Shown: in pieces, positions 7,940 to 14,368 of the stretch
Numbering within the stretch: position 1 is the first letter of the stretch
Layout of the letters: each line of letters opens with the position of its first letter
Source of the DNA: Fibrobacter succinogenes
GTDB taxonomy: Bacteria > Fibrobacterota > Fibrobacteria > Fibrobacterales > Fibrobacteraceae
Direction of reading: 5' to 3'
NCBI GenBank assembly: GCA_902767785.1
Contig: CACXIR010000007.1
Coordinates: 1 to 47,724, forward strand
DNA length: 47,724 nt
Position numbers and translations under genes: made by a program
Notes under the pieces: generated by a model
What the model saw: only the letters and a program-made list of their open reading frames with translations
Told to the model about the DNA's origin: nothing
Database searches by the model: none

Positions 7940-8029
7940 GATAGCTCCTTATCTTGATTTATTATCAAAATAGGTTTTTATTGCGACAAATAATGTCGTA
8001 TCTAAAGCCGTTTTCCAGGTAAACGAAAA

Positions 8030-8061
8030 CGCCCCTGCTCAGAGCTACTTGAGCAGGGGCG
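8030..8061. other. Strong isolated hairpin in the 430-base gap before the iron operon
   Basis: CGCCCCTGCTCA (8030-8041) pairs perfectly with TGAGCAGGGGCG (8050-8061) around an 8-base loop. No T-run follows on the plus strand and only GTTTT follows on the minus strand, so an intrinsic terminator is doubtful. The segment 8062-8169 holds no gene that I can see. From 8170 the gap contains the operators and promoter of the iron operon. Confidence 0.55.
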
Positions 8062-8169
8062 CGGTTGTTTCCCCAAAGAGACACAAGAGGGAATTGGATT
8101 TTTGCTTCAACCTGGCAGGCTCCATTCTAACCCTATGGCTACAATTAGAATTTGACCCACCAATTCAAA

Positions 8170-8185
8170 GTTAGACAAATCTAAC
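8170..8185. promoter_or_regulatory. DtxR-type operator candidate 1
   Basis: GTTAGACAAATCTAAC is a palindrome with arms GTTAGA and TCTAAC. It shares the TTAG...CTAA skeleton with three further sites before the regulator gene and one at 12138-12151. Confidence 0.6.
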
Positions 8186-8235
8186 AAGAAAAACAAGGGC
8201 AAAATTGCGATTTTTGGTAAATTTTTAGCAAAATG

Positions 8236-8249
8236 TTAGCCAAACCTAA
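8236..8249. promoter_or_regulatory. DtxR-type operator candidate 2
   Basis: TTAGCCAAACCTAA has the same 14-base length and TTAG/CTAA ends as the other sites in this leader. Confidence 0.55.
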
Positions 8250-8273
8250 AAAAGTACGCCTTTTTTAATAATT

Positions 8274-8287
8274 TTAGCCTTGCCTAA
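8274..8287. promoter_or_regulatory. DtxR-type operator candidate 3, overlapping the -35 box
   Basis: TTAGCCTTGCCTAA overlaps the proposed -35 hexamer TTGCCT (8280-8285). A repressor bound here would block RNA polymerase directly. Confidence 0.6.
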
Positions 8288-8308
8288 TTAGCCGAAAAGA
8301 ACTATATT
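8280..8308 (+). promoter_or_regulatory. Promoter of the dtxR-feoA-feoB operon
   Basis: TTGCCT (8280-8285) and TATATT (8303-8308) are separated by 17 bases. Operator candidate 3 covers the -35 box and candidate 4 begins inside the -10 box, the usual layout for metal-dependent repression of an uptake operon. Confidence 0.6.
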
Positions 8309-8320
8309 AGCCCCGTCTAA
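8307..8320. promoter_or_regulatory. DtxR-type operator candidate 4, at -10/+1
   Basis: TTAGCCCCGTCTAA starts in the -10 box and covers the likely transcription start. A further half-site, TTAGAC, follows at 8327-8332. Confidence 0.6.
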
Positions 8321-8369
8321 TGACGATTAGACAAAAATTAACCCGTATAATCCGAATCGGAGGCCTCGA

Positions 8370-8792
8370 ATGGATCATACAAAACTAAGCCAGAGTCTCG
8401 AAGACTACTTGGAAATGGTGCACATGTTGCGCCTAGCAAACGGAATCGCCCGAGTCAAGGACATTGCCGCAGCCCTTACGGTCAAAATGCCGTCGGTGGC
8501 AAAGGCGATGATAGAACTCAAGAAACTTGGGCTCGTGACCCAGGAACCCTACAGCGGCATAGAACTCACCGAAGAGGGACAGCGCGTCGCTGCCATGATT
8601 CTGAACCGCCACATATTATTGAAGGGATTCCTGATCAAGCTGGGCGTGTCCGAAGCCATTGCCGACAAGGACGCCTGCTGCATGGAGCATATCCTTTCGG
8701 CGGAGACTCTTGGAAAAATCGAAGATTTTATGAAACCGGCGGAGGCTGTGCCCTCGCCCAAAAAGGCAAAGAGCGTCAAAAACAAAAAGTAG
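8370..8792 (+). CDS. DtxR/MntR-family metal-dependent regulator (short form)
   Basis: This 140-residue protein has the family's winged-helix DNA-binding part (residues ~8-65, with VKDIAAALTVKMPSVAKAMIEL) followed by the dimerisation helices. Residues CCMEH (103-107) match the Cys-x-x-Glu-His metal site of DtxR. The other site is altered: H81 is present, but the expected Glu is Lys (85) and the expected second His is Asp (99). The C-terminal SH3-like domain of long DtxR proteins is absent and replaced by a basic tail; FeoA, which has that fold, is encoded next door. GGAGG at 8359-8363 precedes the ATG. It probably represses this operon in response to Fe2+ by binding the TTAG...CTAA sites. Iron rather than manganese is inferred from the feo neighbours. 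Confidence 0.85.
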   Translation: MDHTKLSQSLEDYLEMVHMLRLANGIARVKDIAAALTVKMPSVAKAMIELKKLGLVTQEPYSGIELTEEGQRVAAMILNRHILLKGFLIKLGVSEAIADKDACCMEHILSAETLGKIEDFMKPAEAVPSPKKAKSVKNKK

Positions 8793-8843: not shown

Positions 8844-9128
8844 ATGAGCTGTAATTGTGGTTGCGGCGGCAAGTCGCAAGCAAAGAAATGGAACACTGAG
8901 CCGCAGTTTTCGGACTTGAAACGCGGCGACAAGGTGGAAATCGTCGGCTATAACGAAGGCGATTCCCGTTACAAGTCAAAACTACTCTCCATGGGACTGG
9001 TTCGCGGCGTAACCCTCGAGGTTTTGCAGGTGGCCCCTCTTGGTGACCCCATCGAAGTGAGCGTCCTTTCTTACAGGCTCTCGCTCCGCAAGCAAGAAGC
9101 CAACGTTCTCAAGCTGAGGAGGGTATAA
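8844..9128 (+). CDS. feoA: FeoA family protein
   Basis: FeoA is a small SH3-like cytoplasmic protein needed for FeoB-dependent Fe2+ uptake. Residues ~21-94 carry the expected pattern: LKRGDKVEIVGY, YKSKLLSMGLVRGVTLEVLQVAPLGDPIEV and LRKQEANVL. The unusual part is the start, CNCGCGG at residues 3-9, a Cys-rich motif that could bind a metal ion or an iron-sulfur cluster. The stop overlaps the feoB ATG by one base (TAATG), giving translational coupling. It lies 51 bases after the regulator gene in the same operon. Confidence 0.9.
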   Translation: MSCNCGCGGKSQAKKWNTEPQFSDLKRGDKVEIVGYNEGDSRYKSKLLSMGLVRGVTLEVLQVAPLGDPIEVSVLSYRLSLRKQEANVLKLRRV

Positions 9129-12046
9129 TGACTGCCAAGCATTTCACGATTGCCATTGCGGGTAACCCGAACTGCGGTAAGACCGCACTCTTTAACGCCC
9201 TCACGGGCTCGCGTCAACACGTGGGCAACTGGCCCGGCGTCACTGTCGAAAAGAAAGAAGGCTATTTTGAACTGGGCGGACGCCACATCCGCGTGGTGGA
9301 CCTGCCGGGTACCTACGCCATTTTCGCCAACGCCGAAGACGAACGCGCCGCTGTCGATTACTTGCTCAGCCGCGAAGCCGACCTGATTATCAATATTGTC
9401 GATGCCACCAACATCGAACGCAACCTGTTCCTCACGAGCCAGCTTGCCGACATGCACCTGCCCATGGTGATTGCGGTGAACATGATGGACATCGCCGAAC
9501 ACCGCGGCATCGTGCTGGACCTGCAGGCCCTTTCCGAAACCTACGGGATTCCCTGCATCCCGCTTTCTGCCGTAAGCGACAAGAGCGTCATGAACTTCGT
9601 AGGCGAAATGGCACACGTGCTTGCCGCCCCCATGCCTCTCCCGAAACCCATGGTCTATGCCGACAAGGTCGAAGAAGCCGTAAAGCTGTTGGAGCCGAAG
9701 GTGGCTCCCGTGGCAAAGCTCCTGAATGCCGACGACCGTTGGGTCGCCCTGATGTACCTGGGCAACGAAAAGAGCTACGCCGACAAGTTCGCCGAAGCGG
9801 GCGTTACCATCGACAAGGCCGAAGTGACAAGGCTCCTGGGCGAAGAACCCGAATTTGCCATGGCCGAAAGCCGTTACTCCAAATCTCACGAAGTGGCCAA
9901 GGCCGTTATCGAATCCAGCCGTACCAAGAAGACATTCTCCGACAAGATCGACGCCGTGCTTTTGAACCGCTGGGCGGCTCTCCCGATTTTCCTGGTCATT
10001 ATGTATCTGGTGTTCTGGATTGCGGTCACCATCGGTTCTGCATTCATTGATTTCTTTGACGTGCTGTTCGGTGCAATTTTCGTAGATGGCCTCGGCTACC
10101 TGCTGGGCGACGTGCTGGGCTGCCCCTCCTTTGTCACGGCAATTCTCGCCGACGGTGTGGGTGCCGGTATCCAGACGGTTTCCACCTTCATCCCTGTCAT
10201 CTTCTTCATGTTCCTGTGCCTTTCGTTCCTGGAAGACTCGGGTTACATGGCCCGTGCGGCATTCGTTGCGGACCGATTCATGCGGTTCCTCGGACTCCCC
10301 GGTCGTGCCTTTGTGCCGATGATGGTGGGCTTTGGTTGCGGCGTGCCGGGCATTATGGGTTCTCGCGTGCTGGAATCCAAGCGTGAACGCTTCCTCACCA
10401 TTTTCTTGGTGCCGTTCATGAGTTGCGGCGCTCGCCTTCCGGTGTATGCGCTGTTTGCGGCGGCATTCTTCGGCAAGATGGCGGGCACGGTGGTGTTCCT
10501 GCTTTACCTCGCCGGTGTGCTGTTCGCCATTGCTTACGGTTTGTTCCTGAAGAAGTCGCTTTTCCAGGGTCAAGCCAGCAACTTTGTGATGGAACTTCCG
10601 CCCTATCACCTGCCCAAGTTCAAGTCCCTGATGATCCACTGCTGGCAGCGCCTGCACGACTACATCTGGCGTGCCGGTAAGGTGATTACCCTTGCGGTTG
10701 CTGTGCTCGGATTCCTTAATAGCTTCGGTATCGTTGAAAAGATGTATGTCGATGTGAACGGAACCGAAACCGAAATCGTCAAGTCCGAAGAAGGCTACCA
10801 GATGGTTAAGGAAAACGAAGAAGGCGAAGCTGAAAATGTTGCTCTCCCTGAAGGTTTCGTAGTTGACGAATCCAAGATTTCTACCGCTAATGAATTTACG
10901 GCTGGTAACGGTGACTCCGAAAATAGCTTGCTCTCTGTAATCGGTAAGGCCATTACGCCGGTGTTCGAACCCTTCGGTGTCGAGAAGGAAAACTGGCCCG
11001 CGTCCGTTTCTCTGTTCACAGGACTCTTGGCCAAGGAAGCCGTTATCGGTACCATGAACTCGCTGTATTCCATGGTGGGGGAAAATGGCGAAGATCCGGC
11101 TGAAGAAGCGAAGCCTGCAGAAGAGCCGAAGGTTGAAGAACCCGCACCGGAACAAGTGGCGGTTGCTGACTCTGCCGCTACGGATAGCGTGAAGGCTGAT
11201 TCGACAGCCGCCGCAGTTGTAGACTCTGCTGTAACCGATAGTGCCGCAGCACCTGCTGAATCCGCAGAAGTTGTTGCCGAAGCCGCTCCTGCTGAGGCTC
11301 CCGCAGAAGAAAAGCCCCTTATCGCCGGTGTAGACGAATGCCCCGCTGAAGAAGAGAAAGAAGGCGGCGCTCCCGATATGAAGGGTGCACTGCTCGAAGC
11401 ACTCGGCTCGATTCCTGCAAACCTTGCCGAAGTATTTGGCTCCCTCACCGACCCGCTGGGAACCTCTGGCGAATTGGAAGGCCAGGAAGCCGCCGAACTC
11501 AAGAAGGAAACTCTTGACAAGATTACCGACGCCAAGGTGCTGACCTGCGAAGAATATGCAGCCATTGAAACCTTTGGCGAAGAAGAAGAGGATGAAAAGA
11601 CTCGCGAAGCCGTGTTCGAAAAACTCGCCGCCGCAGGCCTTGAACTCTCCGAAGACGAAATGGGCGCTCTCGAAGAAGGCGACCTTTCCGAAACTGCCGA
11701 CATCTACGCCAACCTCCGCTCTTACTTCCACAATCCGGACAAGGACGGAAACCCGGTGGACGGTTTCAACTGGCAGGTGTTCGCATTCCTCATCTTCATC
11801 TTGCTCTACGTGCCGTGCCTTGCCGCCATGGGTGTCGTTGCCCGTGAGATCGGCCTCGGCCTCGCTATCCTCATGGCAACGGTGCAGACCCTCCTTGCCT
11901 GGGCTGTGGCAGTTCTTCTTTACCAGGTGCCCGTCGGCGGAAACACGACATGGATTGTCGCCGCCATCGTAGTACTGGTGGGTACGGGAATCTTCCTCAA
12001 GCTCTTCGGCATGAAGGCTAATAAGGAAAAGCGCTTCGAAGACTAA
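9128..12046 (+). CDS. feoB: Ferrous iron transporter FeoB with a large disordered insertion
   Basis: FeoB imports Fe2+ across the inner membrane and has a GTPase domain. Visible GTPase motifs are GNPNCGKT (12-19, P-loop), DLPGTY (58-63), NMMD (118-121) and SAVS (147-150). The membrane core carries both Gate motifs, GCGVPGIMGSR (403-413) and PFMSCGARLPVY (429-440), and ends with membrane segments at ~882-960. At 972 residues it is about 200 longer than usual FeoB. The extra length is a soluble, Pro/Ala/Glu-rich acidic segment (~650-870) between membrane parts, plus a smaller acidic loop (~540-600). The acidic loop resembles the low-complexity regions of the barrel protein at 12317 and of NuoM. 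It is the last gene of the operon, with a terminator at 12091-12125. Confidence 0.95.
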   Translation: MTAKHFTIAIAGNPNCGKTALFNALTGSRQHVGNWPGVTVEKKEGYFELGGRHIRVVDLPGTYAIFANAEDERAAVDYLLSREADLIINIVDATNIERNLFLTSQLADMHLPMVIAVNMMDIAEHRGIVLDLQALSETYGIPCIPLSAVSDKSVMNFVGEMAHVLAAPMPLPKPMVYADKVEEAVKLLEPKVAPVAKLLNADDRWVALMYLGNEKSYADKFAEAGVTIDKAEVTRLLGEEPEFAMAESRYSKSHEVAKAVIESSRTKKTFSDKIDAVLLNRWAALPIFLVIMYLVFWIAVTIGSAFIDFFDVLFGAIFVDGLGYLLGDVLGCPSFVTAILADGVGAGIQTVSTFIPVIFFMFLCLSFLEDSGYMARAAFVADRFMRFLGLPGRAFVPMMVGFGCGVPGIMGSRVLESKRERFLTIFLVPFMSCGARLPVYALFAAAFFGKMAGTVVFLLYLAGVLFAIAYGLFLKKSLFQGQASNFVMELPPYHLPKFKSLMIHCWQRLHDYIWRAGKVITLAVAVLGFLNSFGIVEKMYVDVNGTETEIVKSEEGYQMVKENEEGEAENVALPEGFVVDESKISTANEFTAGNGDSENSLLSVIGKAITPVFEPFGVEKENWPASVSLFTGLLAKEAVIGTMNSLYSMVGENGEDPAEEAKPAEEPKVEEPAPEQVAVADSAATDSVKADSTAAAVVDSAVTDSAAAPAESAEVVAEAAPAEAPAEEKPLIAGVDECPAEEEKEGGAPDMKGALLEALGSIPANLAEVFGSLTDPLGTSGELEGQEAAELKKETLDKITDAKVLTCEEYAAIETFGEEEEDEKTREAVFEKLAAAGLELSEDEMGALEEGDLSETADIYANLRSYFHNPDKDGNPVDGFNWQVFAFLIFILLYVPCLAAMGVVAREIGLGLAILMATVQTLLAWAVAVLLYQVPVGGNTTWIVAAIVVLVGTGIFLKLFGMKANKEKRFED

Positions 12047-12137: not shown

Positions 12138-12151
12138 TTAGACAAGTCTAA
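12138..12151. promoter_or_regulatory. DtxR-type operator candidate 5, upstream of the barrel gene
   Basis: TTAGACAAGTCTAA is the most symmetric of the five sites (TTAGAC, AA at centre, GTCTAA). It lies after the feo terminator and 166 bases before the outer-membrane barrel gene at 12317, suggesting that this gene belongs to the same metal regulon. A clear promoter beside it is not visible. Confidence 0.55.
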
Positions 12152-12179: not shown

Positions 12180-12316
12180 GATGTTCAAACATATTGGCAC
12201 GCATTTTGCTTTACTACGCGCGAAACAGCGTCTGCCTACCATTTTTGTGACATGAACTGTAAAACAGTGGACGGAGTGTTACAAAAACGACAAAAAATCC
12301 GTCAAAGGAGATAAAA

Positions 12317-13816
12317 ATGAAGAACCGTTTAACGTCCCACCTCTTGTCCGGACTCGCTGCCGCAGCATTCTTTGCGATGCCGGCACTTGCACAGGACGCA
12401 GCACCCGCGACAACAGAAGCCGCTCCTGCCGCCACCGCTGCTGAGCAGCCCGCTACAGAAGAAGCGAAGCCCGCGGTAGAAGAAGCACAGTCTGCAGCGG
12501 AACAGCCGAAGGCCGAAGAATCTGTCGCTGCTGAACAGACGGAAGCGCCGGCCGCCGAGCAGGCCGCGGCACAACCCGCGCAGGAACAGCCCGCTGAGCA
12601 GACGGCAGCGGCACAGCCCGCCGAAGAACCTAAGGCTGAAGAGGCTAAGCCCGAGCAGCCCGCCGAACAGGCCGCAGCCCCTGCCGAGAACACCAACCCG
12701 GGCGAAGTGGCTAATGCTGCCGGTAACGCCCTCGACATGCTCAAGGCCAGCATGAACGAAGGCACTTCCGAAGCCAAGATGGAAGTCAAGTTCGGTGGTG
12801 AAGTGGAATTCGACGCCTACACAGGCAACGTCTGGGTGGATGACGACCTGAACCACAGCTACGCATCTACCTTTGACCTGAACTTTGAAATCCAGTTCAA
12901 CGAAAAGTGGTCAGCCTTCGTAGGCCTCGAAGCCGACGATGAGACTACAGATCCTCCCGCCGTCTATAACGGAGCCTACATCCAGTACCAGCCTGCAGAA
13001 TTCTTTGCTGTCAAGGCCGGTGACCTGACCTTCTCCGAAGGCGCATTCGTCGCCTACTACGACTACGACGATCCTGCCGACAACGCCGCCGGCATGAAGG
13101 AACATGACATCCGCGGTCTTGAAATCGATCTGGCCGGATTCGTGCTCGGATTCGGTTTCGGTCGCGGAGATAACGACTGGGCCGACGACGAAGGCGCCAA
13201 GGTTTACAATGTCCACGCCGCCTACGAATTCGACTACGCCGGTCAGCACCTGCGTCCGTATGTGGACTACAAGAGCTTCCAGACCGCACAGCACAACGAA
13301 CTCCACGCCGGTGTCGAAGCGGGCCTCTCCCTCGGCGGGTTCGGTTTCCGTGCCGTCTATGGATTCCATGGTGACTACCTGATGGACGACGGCGACGTGG
13401 CAAAGGGACAGGACTGGACCTCTACCGCCCACACCTTCTTGGCCGAACCTTCCTTTGAACTGGGCATGTTCGAAATCAAGACCACGGCCTTCTACGCCCT
13501 CATCGACAGAGGCGATGCCGTCGAAGACGCCAGCGATCTCGACAACGGCGAAATTCCCGAATACTTCTTCGCCTACGCCGAGCCCGCTCTCAAGCTTGCC
13601 GAATTCATCAAGTTGGGCATCCCTGTAGAATACCACACCCACACGCTGGATGACGACGACGAGACTGCCGCCACATTCGACGTGGGTGGACGCGTCTACA
13701 TCACGCCGGTGGAGAACCTGGAAATCACGGCCTTCGGCATGGTGGACATGCCTATCCAGGACAACGAAGACGACGATGTCCTCCGCTTTGGTGTGGAAAC
13801 CGTGTTCAGCTTCTAA
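12317..13816 (+). CDS. Putative outer-membrane beta-barrel protein with Pro/Ala/Glu-rich N-terminal region
   Basis: The 499-residue protein starts with a clear signal peptide ending at about ALAQ. A ~100-residue stretch made almost only of Ala, Glu, Pro, Gln and Lys follows. From about residue 155 the sequence alternates in the manner of a transmembrane barrel and ends in VETVFSF, with the terminal Phe typical of outer-membrane proteins. The segment GDLTFSEGAFVAYYDYDDP...DIRGLEI resembles GDLTYSAGAF.YYYWRDP...GLRGVGAEFG in the protein at 38854, so both belong to one family. AAGGAG (12304-12309) precedes the ATG. It sits between the iron operon and the zinc operon, with a DtxR-type palindrome upstream; a role as a metal-linked porin is inference. 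Confidence 0.75.
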   Translation: MKNRLTSHLLSGLAAAAFFAMPALAQDAAPATTEAAPAATAAEQPATEEAKPAVEEAQSAAEQPKAEESVAAEQTEAPAAEQAAAQPAQEQPAEQTAAAQPAEEPKAEEAKPEQPAEQAAAPAENTNPGEVANAAGNALDMLKASMNEGTSEAKMEVKFGGEVEFDAYTGNVWVDDDLNHSYASTFDLNFEIQFNEKWSAFVGLEADDETTDPPAVYNGAYIQYQPAEFFAVKAGDLTFSEGAFVAYYDYDDPADNAAGMKEHDIRGLEIDLAGFVLGFGFGRGDNDWADDEGAKVYNVHAAYEFDYAGQHLRPYVDYKSFQTAQHNELHAGVEAGLSLGGFGFRAVYGFHGDYLMDDGDVAKGQDWTSTAHTFLAEPSFELGMFEIKTTAFYALIDRGDAVEDASDLDNGEIPEYFFAYAEPALKLAEFIKLGIPVEYHTHTLDDDDETAATFDVGGRVYITPVENLEITAFGMVDMPIQDNEDDDVLRFGVETVFSF

Positions 13817-13978: not shown

Positions 13979-14368
13979 ATGGAATACAAAACGCAAACGC
14001 GACAAGTCATTATGGACTATATGGTCAATAACCCCGACCGCATTTTCAAGGCGTCGGATATTGCCAAAAACCTGCCCTCCGTCTCGTTAAGCACCATCTA
14101 CAGGAACCTATCACGCCTAGAAAAAATGGGCATTGTGCAGATTGTAGGTGCCGAAGAGAACAAGGAACTTCAGTACCGCTATACAGGCCCCGGCAGGTGC
14201 CAGACAAAAATGCACCTAGTCTGCAAGGAATGCGGAAAGTTCTTCCACCTAGATGGCCCCGCCCTCAAGATGCTGCAGCTTTCGCTCCAACGCATCAAGG
14301 GCTTTGAACTAGACCAGCAACAATCAGTCTTATTAGGCCGCTGCGCCGGGTGCATTCGCCATGCTTAA
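13979..14368 (+). CDS. zur: Fur-family regulator, probably Zur
   Basis: The 129-residue protein has the Fur winged-helix (residues ~5-60, with SLSTIYRNLSRLEKMGIV as the recognition region) and a metal-binding part. H79, C82 and C85 (MHLVCKECGKFFH) and C122/C125 (CAGC) form the two structural zinc pairs of the family. It heads an operon with znuA, znuC and znuB (8-base overlap with znuA), which argues for zinc as the sensed metal rather than iron. A GGAG at 13969-13972 precedes the ATG. It probably represses the operon through the palindrome at 13916-13940. Confidence 0.85.
   Translation: MEYKTQTRQVIMDYMVNNPDRIFKASDIAKNLPSVSLSTIYRNLSRLEKMGIVQIVGAEENKELQYRYTGPGRCQTKMHLVCKECGKFFHLDGPALKMLQLSLQRIKGFELDQQQSVLLGRCAGCIRHA

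Follow-up and report, generated by a model that had tools for sequence, protein, structure and literature searches.

The systems closest to the one described here belong to the DtxR family of metal-dependent repressors. For IdeR, the single-dimer site has a 14-bp consensus, TTAGGNNNNCCTAA (PMC8464063). PgMntR of Porphyromonas gingivalis binds Mn2+ as well as Fe2+ and controls a manganese importer (PMC4805248), and in treponemes the gene gpm is linked to the tro locus (PMC2628430). Our literature search found no study of a DtxR-family regulator in Fibrobacter or its phylum. We analysed a stretch of 47,724 nucleotides from Fibrobacter succinogenes (the window), in which a group of palindromes precedes the genes dtxR-feoA-feoB. 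Judging from sequence comparisons, these palindromes are very probably the tandem operators of the adjacent repressor, a two-domain, MntR-type member of the DtxR family that is most likely activated by Fe2+ and controls dtxR-feoAB together with a porin gene.

A probable tandem operator array upstream of dtxR-feoAB

Four exact TTAG-N6-CTAA dyads (TTAGNNNNNNCTAA) were found upstream of dtxR-feoA-feoB, starting at 8171, 8236, 8274 and 8307 (exact-match spans 8171-8184, 8236-8249, 8274-8287 and 8307-8320 in a pattern search of the 47.7-kb window). Candidate operator site 1 (8170..8185) is the 16-mer GTTAGACAAATCTAAC, which extends the 14-bp dyad at 8171-8184 and whose register is kept in relatives. 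Candidate site 2 (8236..8249, TTAGCCAAACCTAA) is an exact match that was also compared with relatives. Candidate site 3 (8274..8287, TTAGCCTTGCCTAA) contains the -35 box, and its last half abuts a further TTAG half-site; this junction (CTAATTAG, 8284..8291) was found in 42/61 loci. Candidate site 4 (8307..8320, TTAGCCCCGTCTAA) spans the last bases of the -10 box together with the predicted transcription start. A degenerate candidate site 5 (8327..8341, TTAGACAAAAATTAA) lies 20 bp downstream of site 4 and begins with the half-site TTAGAC at 8327; some relatives (e.g. L016, L030) carry a full fifth site at the equivalent position. The palindromes and half-site that an earlier, sequence-only reading had described before the operon were thus confirmed, as four exact dyads and a degenerate fifth. 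That reading did not include the perfect site at 12138 before the porin gene.

The number of dyads by far exceeded expectation. Shuffling of the whole window gave a mean of 0.42 and a maximum of 3 matches per 47.7 kb against 5 observed, and when the intergenic stretch 7940-8369 was shuffled 20,000 times no run had more than 2 matches, against 4 observed. On the strength of these shuffles and of the comparative counts given below, we rejected a chance origin from AT-rich sequence. Relaxing the pattern to two mismatches yielded only a chance number of matches within the window.

The consensus proposed by the sequence-only reading, TTAG(A/C)C-NN-(G/C)-(T/C)-CTAA, had to be changed. It asked for G or C at position 9, where the sites at 8171 and 8236 both have A, and because two of its own four sites thus did not fit the written form we corrected it to TTAG-N-Y-NN-R-N-CTAA. 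A matrix built from 103 distinct sites gave the consensus WWWN-TTAG-N-Y-NN-R-N-CTAA-NWWW, with arms that were invariant across relatives and variable inner bases.

The alignment of relatives placed the dtxR-feoAB promoter on the forward strand within this array. The -35 box TTGCCT (8280..8285; TTGACT in many relatives) lies inside site 3, and the -10 box TATATT (8303..8308) follows after a 17-bp spacer, its last two bases forming the start of site 4, so that the proposed overlap of two palindromes with the -35 and -10 boxes holds. In 42 distinct promoters the distance between sites 3 and 4 was 33 or 34 bp, with TTGMCT and TATATT-like boxes 17 bp apart. The asymmetric centre of site 3 can be explained by its double role, since the site must also serve as the -35 box. 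Spacings between full sites were mostly 20-21, 26, 33-34, 38 and 65-67 bp; they do not correspond to a 19-bp site with two interleaved dimers, and the abutting half-site after site 3 follows at +14 bp.

As predicted from the sequence, this layout is that of a repressor that excludes RNA polymerase, supplemented by extra sites of which several are separated by two helical turns. In a cytoplasm rich in divalent metal, which is most likely Fe2+, the metal-loaded dimer would bind the 14-bp sites. Occupation of sites 3 and 4 would keep RNA polymerase off the dtxR-feoA-feoB promoter, which we propose because the -35 box lies under site 3, and the transcription start and the last bases of the -10 box under site 4. 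Sites 1 and 2 on the upstream side and site 5 on the downstream side would increase occupancy, several being spaced by two helical turns. The sites, their conservation, their phasing with the promoter, the gene linkage and the regulon content come directly from the sequences; binding, repression, cooperativity and the role of Fe2+ as the signal are inferred. As the regulator gene is the first one in the operon, dtxR-feoAB would be autoregulated.

Distribution of the sites in Fibrobacter and related genomes

In the source genome (2.53 Mb, 88% complete), the pattern search located just eight TTAG-N6-CTAA sites: four at the dtxR promoter, one at 12138 and three away from the locus. Five of the eight thus fall in two neighbouring promoters at the iron locus. 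The sequence-only reading had named a random genome distribution as the outcome that would speak against an operator; what we observed was strongly non-random. Since the one-mismatch sites elsewhere in this genome were, among those read, almost all located within open reading frames, the regulon was not extended there. The strict sites of the source genome mark only these two promoters, and the wider regulon presented below is drawn from other genomes of the group, several of which are close relatives of one another. The dyad was also scarce compared with a reversed-pattern control (8 vs 45 in the source genome, 12-21 vs 66-144 in relatives). We did not take this as active avoidance, because TTAG and CTAA carry stop codons and are hence rare in genes.

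A scan for the regulator recovered 64 loci, nearly all from Fibrobacter, of which 61 were usable. These held 168 sites in the 15.25 kb upstream of the regulator gene, compared to 45 in the 589 kb elsewhere, and TTAG-N6-CTAA ranked first among 3,328 dyads (all 4-base arms with spacers of 0 to 12). At least one site was present in 58/61 loci, so that within the genus the sites track dtxR-feoAB, which together with the non-random distribution supports the earlier prediction of an operator for the DtxR-like protein. Many of the 45 sites elsewhere belonged to the porin promoter, 3.7-3.9 kb downstream, or to a DUF3793-flavodoxin promoter about 5 kb downstream. The sister genus g5 has the gene order dtxR, porin, feoA, feoB, with two to three sites, often the same TTAGCCTTGACTAA or TTAGTCTTGACTAA, in the porin-feoAB promoter. 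The sites therefore follow the feo genes after rearrangement. Two loci titled Clostridia and Prevotellaceae (L026, L067) encoded a Fibrobacter-like regulator at 86-93% identity and are probably misbinned contigs.

Outside the genus, a single site was found where the regulator gene has its -10 region in four loci of the same family (L207, L213, L214, L216) and in three of other families (L219 of f6, L221 of f13 and L226 of f10). Other phylum members (L218, L222, L224) encoded a regulator homologue without such a site. The operator had been assigned to the phylum as a whole; this description applies to sister genera and to families f6, f10 and f13, and does not extend to these last three loci.

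The regulator and its metal

The regulator gene (8370..8792, forward strand) encodes a protein of 140 aa with a winged helix-turn-helix domain (PF01325, E 4e-12) and a metal-binding and dimerisation domain (PF02742, E 1.5e-14), both above cut-off. The PF02742 match stops at residue 125, and no SH3-like or FeoA-like domain follows. The best PDB matches were MntR of E. coli and B. subtilis. Scores stayed below the cut-offs of the NCBIfam MntR models (PRK11050, 110.9 vs 153; PRK03902, 87.2 vs 138) and of the DtxR equivalog NF053665 (26.8 vs 290). Among 74 sequences the predicted metal ligands were conserved: Asp12 in 71/74, His81 in 73/74, and Glu15, Cys103, Glu106 and His107 in 74/74. The regulator thus carries the ligand set of the DtxR/MntR family (Asp/Met8, Glu11, His77, Glu/Cys99, Glu102 and His103 in B. 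subtilis numbering), and at the position of MntR Glu99 all 74 sequences have Cys103, the equivalent of DtxR Cys102. By this predicted build, the protein is of the MntR type rather than a classical DtxR. Its recognition helix has a conserved Pro41-Ser42, the counterpart of Pro39-Thr40 of IdeR.

Many genomes of the genus encode a second copy of the regulator. For three tandem second copies (G013:C7:228034-228429, G017:C58:9503-9898 and G063:C116:6421-6816) the matched stretch crosses one in-frame TGA. In another case a second regulator-feoB2 locus (L138:7994-11036; FeoB of about 780 aa) lies close to the main feo locus and has a candidate operator pair of its own.

The ligand set alone does not settle whether Fe2+ or Mn2+ is sensed, because the same mixture of Asp and Cys occurs in PgMntR, with its affinity for both metals and its manganese importer as target. 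Regulon content favours iron: flavodoxin, riboflavin synthesis, a TonB receptor and ApbE recur among the predicted targets and represent an iron-starvation set. A search of 80 genomes of the genus for the Nramp manganese importer (PF01566) gave no match. Fe2+ is thus the probable co-repressor. An alternative with the same operators and protein is a true MntR that responds to Mn2+ and controls a Feo-type Mn2+ importer, like PgMntR and FB2 of P. gingivalis. The closest models and structures are indeed those of MntR, and Asp12, Glu15, His81, Glu106 and His107 fit a manganese site, with Asp12 a manganese-type ligand. PgMntR has the same Asp and Cys hybrid and regulates a manganese-transporting FeoB2 (PMC4805248). 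In two genomes (L122, L153) a gene for a dPGM-like phosphoglycerate mutase is among the predicted targets, and gpm forms part of the tro locus of treponemes (PMC2628430). The replacement of the MntR glutamate by Cys103 and the recurring iron-starvation targets speak against this alternative, which we consider unlikely.

Which protein occupies the sites

An alternative to the adjacent DtxR-family protein is a regulator of the Fur/PerR family. A Fur/PerR-like gene (13979-14368, 129 aa) lies directly after the porin gene, its product might occupy the sites instead, and two Fur-family matches were found in the source genome. If the sites were Fur boxes, a Fur-family protein would be expected wherever they occur, yet genomes G129 and G148, both rated 100% complete, have sites at their feo genes and no match to PF01475. 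A DtxR-family protein, in contrast, was present in 12/12 genomes examined, and the TTAG/CTAA half-site is that of DtxR and IdeR. We therefore regard binding by a Fur/PerR-family regulator as very improbable. Still less credible is that the palindromes act in RNA or are non-functional, as weak hairpins, mobile repeats or AT-rich chance: the arms are short and the region is AT-rich (36% G+C), but hairpins with arms of four bases and loops of six should be weak, the predicted transcription start lies downstream of most sites, the arms are fixed while the inner bases vary, and the site count was never reached in shuffles.

The adjacent DtxR-family protein remains by far the best candidate for binding the sites. 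This assignment follows from its being the only PF01325 protein found in the source genome, from the Fur-less genomes with sites, from the IdeR-like 14-bp geometry and from the conserved Pro41-Ser42.

A porin gene with a candidate operator

The feo genes follow the regulator gene on the forward strand: feoA (8844..9128, PF04023) and feoB (9128..12046, TIGR00437 above cut-off). FeoB is unusually long with 972 aa and has an acidic Ala/Glu/Pro-rich stretch between its membrane parts. Just downstream of feoB, a forward-strand gene (12317..13816) encodes an outer-membrane porin of 499 aa with a C-terminal Phe. An AlphaFold2 model showed a barrel of about 18 strands at moderate confidence (mean pLDDT 65.6), with residues 1-133 mostly unstructured; a Foldseek search with this model matched porins, the best being the C. 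jejuni MOMP (E 2.8e-13). Upstream of the porin gene lies the perfect palindrome TTAGACAAGTCTAA (candidate operator site 6, 12138..12151), which has equivalents in relatives.

We argue for a role of this porin in ferrous-iron entry, since its gene is located between dtxR and feoAB in g5 and is preceded by a candidate operator in the window. It probably admits Fe2+, or chelates of it, to the periplasm for FeoB, and the same repressor bound at site 6 would limit its production. For E. coli, a link between OmpC and ferrous uptake has been reported (PMC7315122).

The porin gene appears to have a canonical sigma-54-type -24/-12 promoter (TGGCACGCATTTTGC, 12195..12209, forward strand), with site 6 lying some 45-60 bp upstream. 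At about 60 bp from such a promoter simple occlusion would not work, and repression of the porin may instead block either the binding of an activator or a second promoter. The pattern TGGCACG-N4-TTGC occurred 15 times in the source genome vs 0 for a reversed control, and sigma-54 promoters seem to be common in Fibrobacter.

Predicted regulon in relatives

Sites preceded a DUF3793-flavodoxin gene in 9/11 loci examined for this pairing, with further cases in other relatives; this flavodoxin was not found in the source genome. Other genes preceded by sites in relatives encoded riboflavin synthase, ApbE, a TonB-dependent receptor, an ABC transporter, an AraC regulator and NuoB. In one locus (L123:2143-4618), genes for ApbE, NusG_II and Hpre_diP_synt_I form a divergent cluster around an operator-like site; the NusG_II and Hpre_diP_synt_I neighbours presumably resemble EetA/EetB of flavin-based extracellular electron transfer. 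Targets seen in two genomes only (GAPDH, dPGM, NuoB) may include chance cases. GC-rich sites in G028 and G029 (L125-L129, L180-L187) were often located within open reading frames or at their 3' ends and were excluded as targets. Operator-like sites were also seen before GGDEF-EAL genes adjoining nuo genes (L134, L172, L177) and before a gene for a 202-aa HD-domain protein (L135, L158, L164, L167) in several genomes, which may point to a connection of metal control with cyclic-di-GMP.

We tentatively suggest a wider reading, in which a small protein of the MntR type, whose metal site is an Asp/Cys hybrid, might be the main Fe2+ repressor of Fibrobacterota in place of Fur. Acting on tandem 14-bp operators, it would govern FeoAB, an outer-membrane porin dedicated to ferrous iron, the substitution by flavodoxin and riboflavin, and a flavin-based electron transfer of the ApbE/EetAB kind.

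Comparison with known systems

The locus looks like an undescribed iron-control circuit in Fibrobacterota that is built from known parts. A DtxR/MntR repressor with its operator is known; new are the phylum, the promoter-phased tandem array of 14-bp sites and a regulon that contains a porin. For a phylum that includes major degraders of fibre in the rumen, the analysis provides an operator matrix that can be tested and a candidate iron regulon, and it links a phylum-specific porin to ferrous-iron uptake. The protein, a natural two-domain regulator that combines the Asp of MntR with the Cys of DtxR, further bears on how the family tells Fe2+ from Mn2+.

The sites resemble most those of IdeR/DtxR of Actinobacteria (19-bp TTAGGTTAGSCTAACCTAA; 14-bp form as given above; PMC8464063), with the same TTAG...CTAA half-sites at identical 14-bp spacing. 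Both systems place their sites over iron-uptake promoters and have a conserved Pro followed by Ser/Thr in the recognition helix, and the Saccharopolyspora nuo promoter with a single-dimer site finds a parallel in the nuoB-proximal site of Fibrobacter relatives. Arms and spacing are common to the TTAGG-N4-CCTAA class, whereas the inner G/C pair of that class (positions 5 and 10) is not fixed in Fibrobacter. Moreover, the Fibrobacter sites are separate tandem 14-bp sites instead of two interleaved dimers on 19 bp, and unlike DtxR the regulator has no SH3-like domain and carries Asp in place of Met10. TroR of Treponema (PMC2628430) likewise belongs to the DtxR family and represses an operon for metal uptake; its operator is located at a sigma-70 promoter, and a phosphoglycerate mutase is linked to the system. 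It differs in its 18-bp operator of other sequence and in its ABC transporter target. With MntR of E. coli and B. subtilis (PDB 2h09, 1on1) the Fibrobacter regulator shares the two-domain build and most metal ligands, but Glu99 is replaced by Cys, the mntH (Nramp) target is absent from the genus and the B. subtilis mntH operator TTTGCCTTAAGGAAAC (within a probe quoted in PMC9861239) differs in sequence from the Fibrobacter sites. PgMntR of P. gingivalis (PMC4805248) has the same hybrid metal site of Asp, Cys, Glu and His and also shares an operon with a FeoB-type transporter. At its C-terminus it has two FeoA domains, and its target is a manganese importer, whereas the Fibrobacter regulator lacks a FeoA domain and its predicted regulon is centred on iron.
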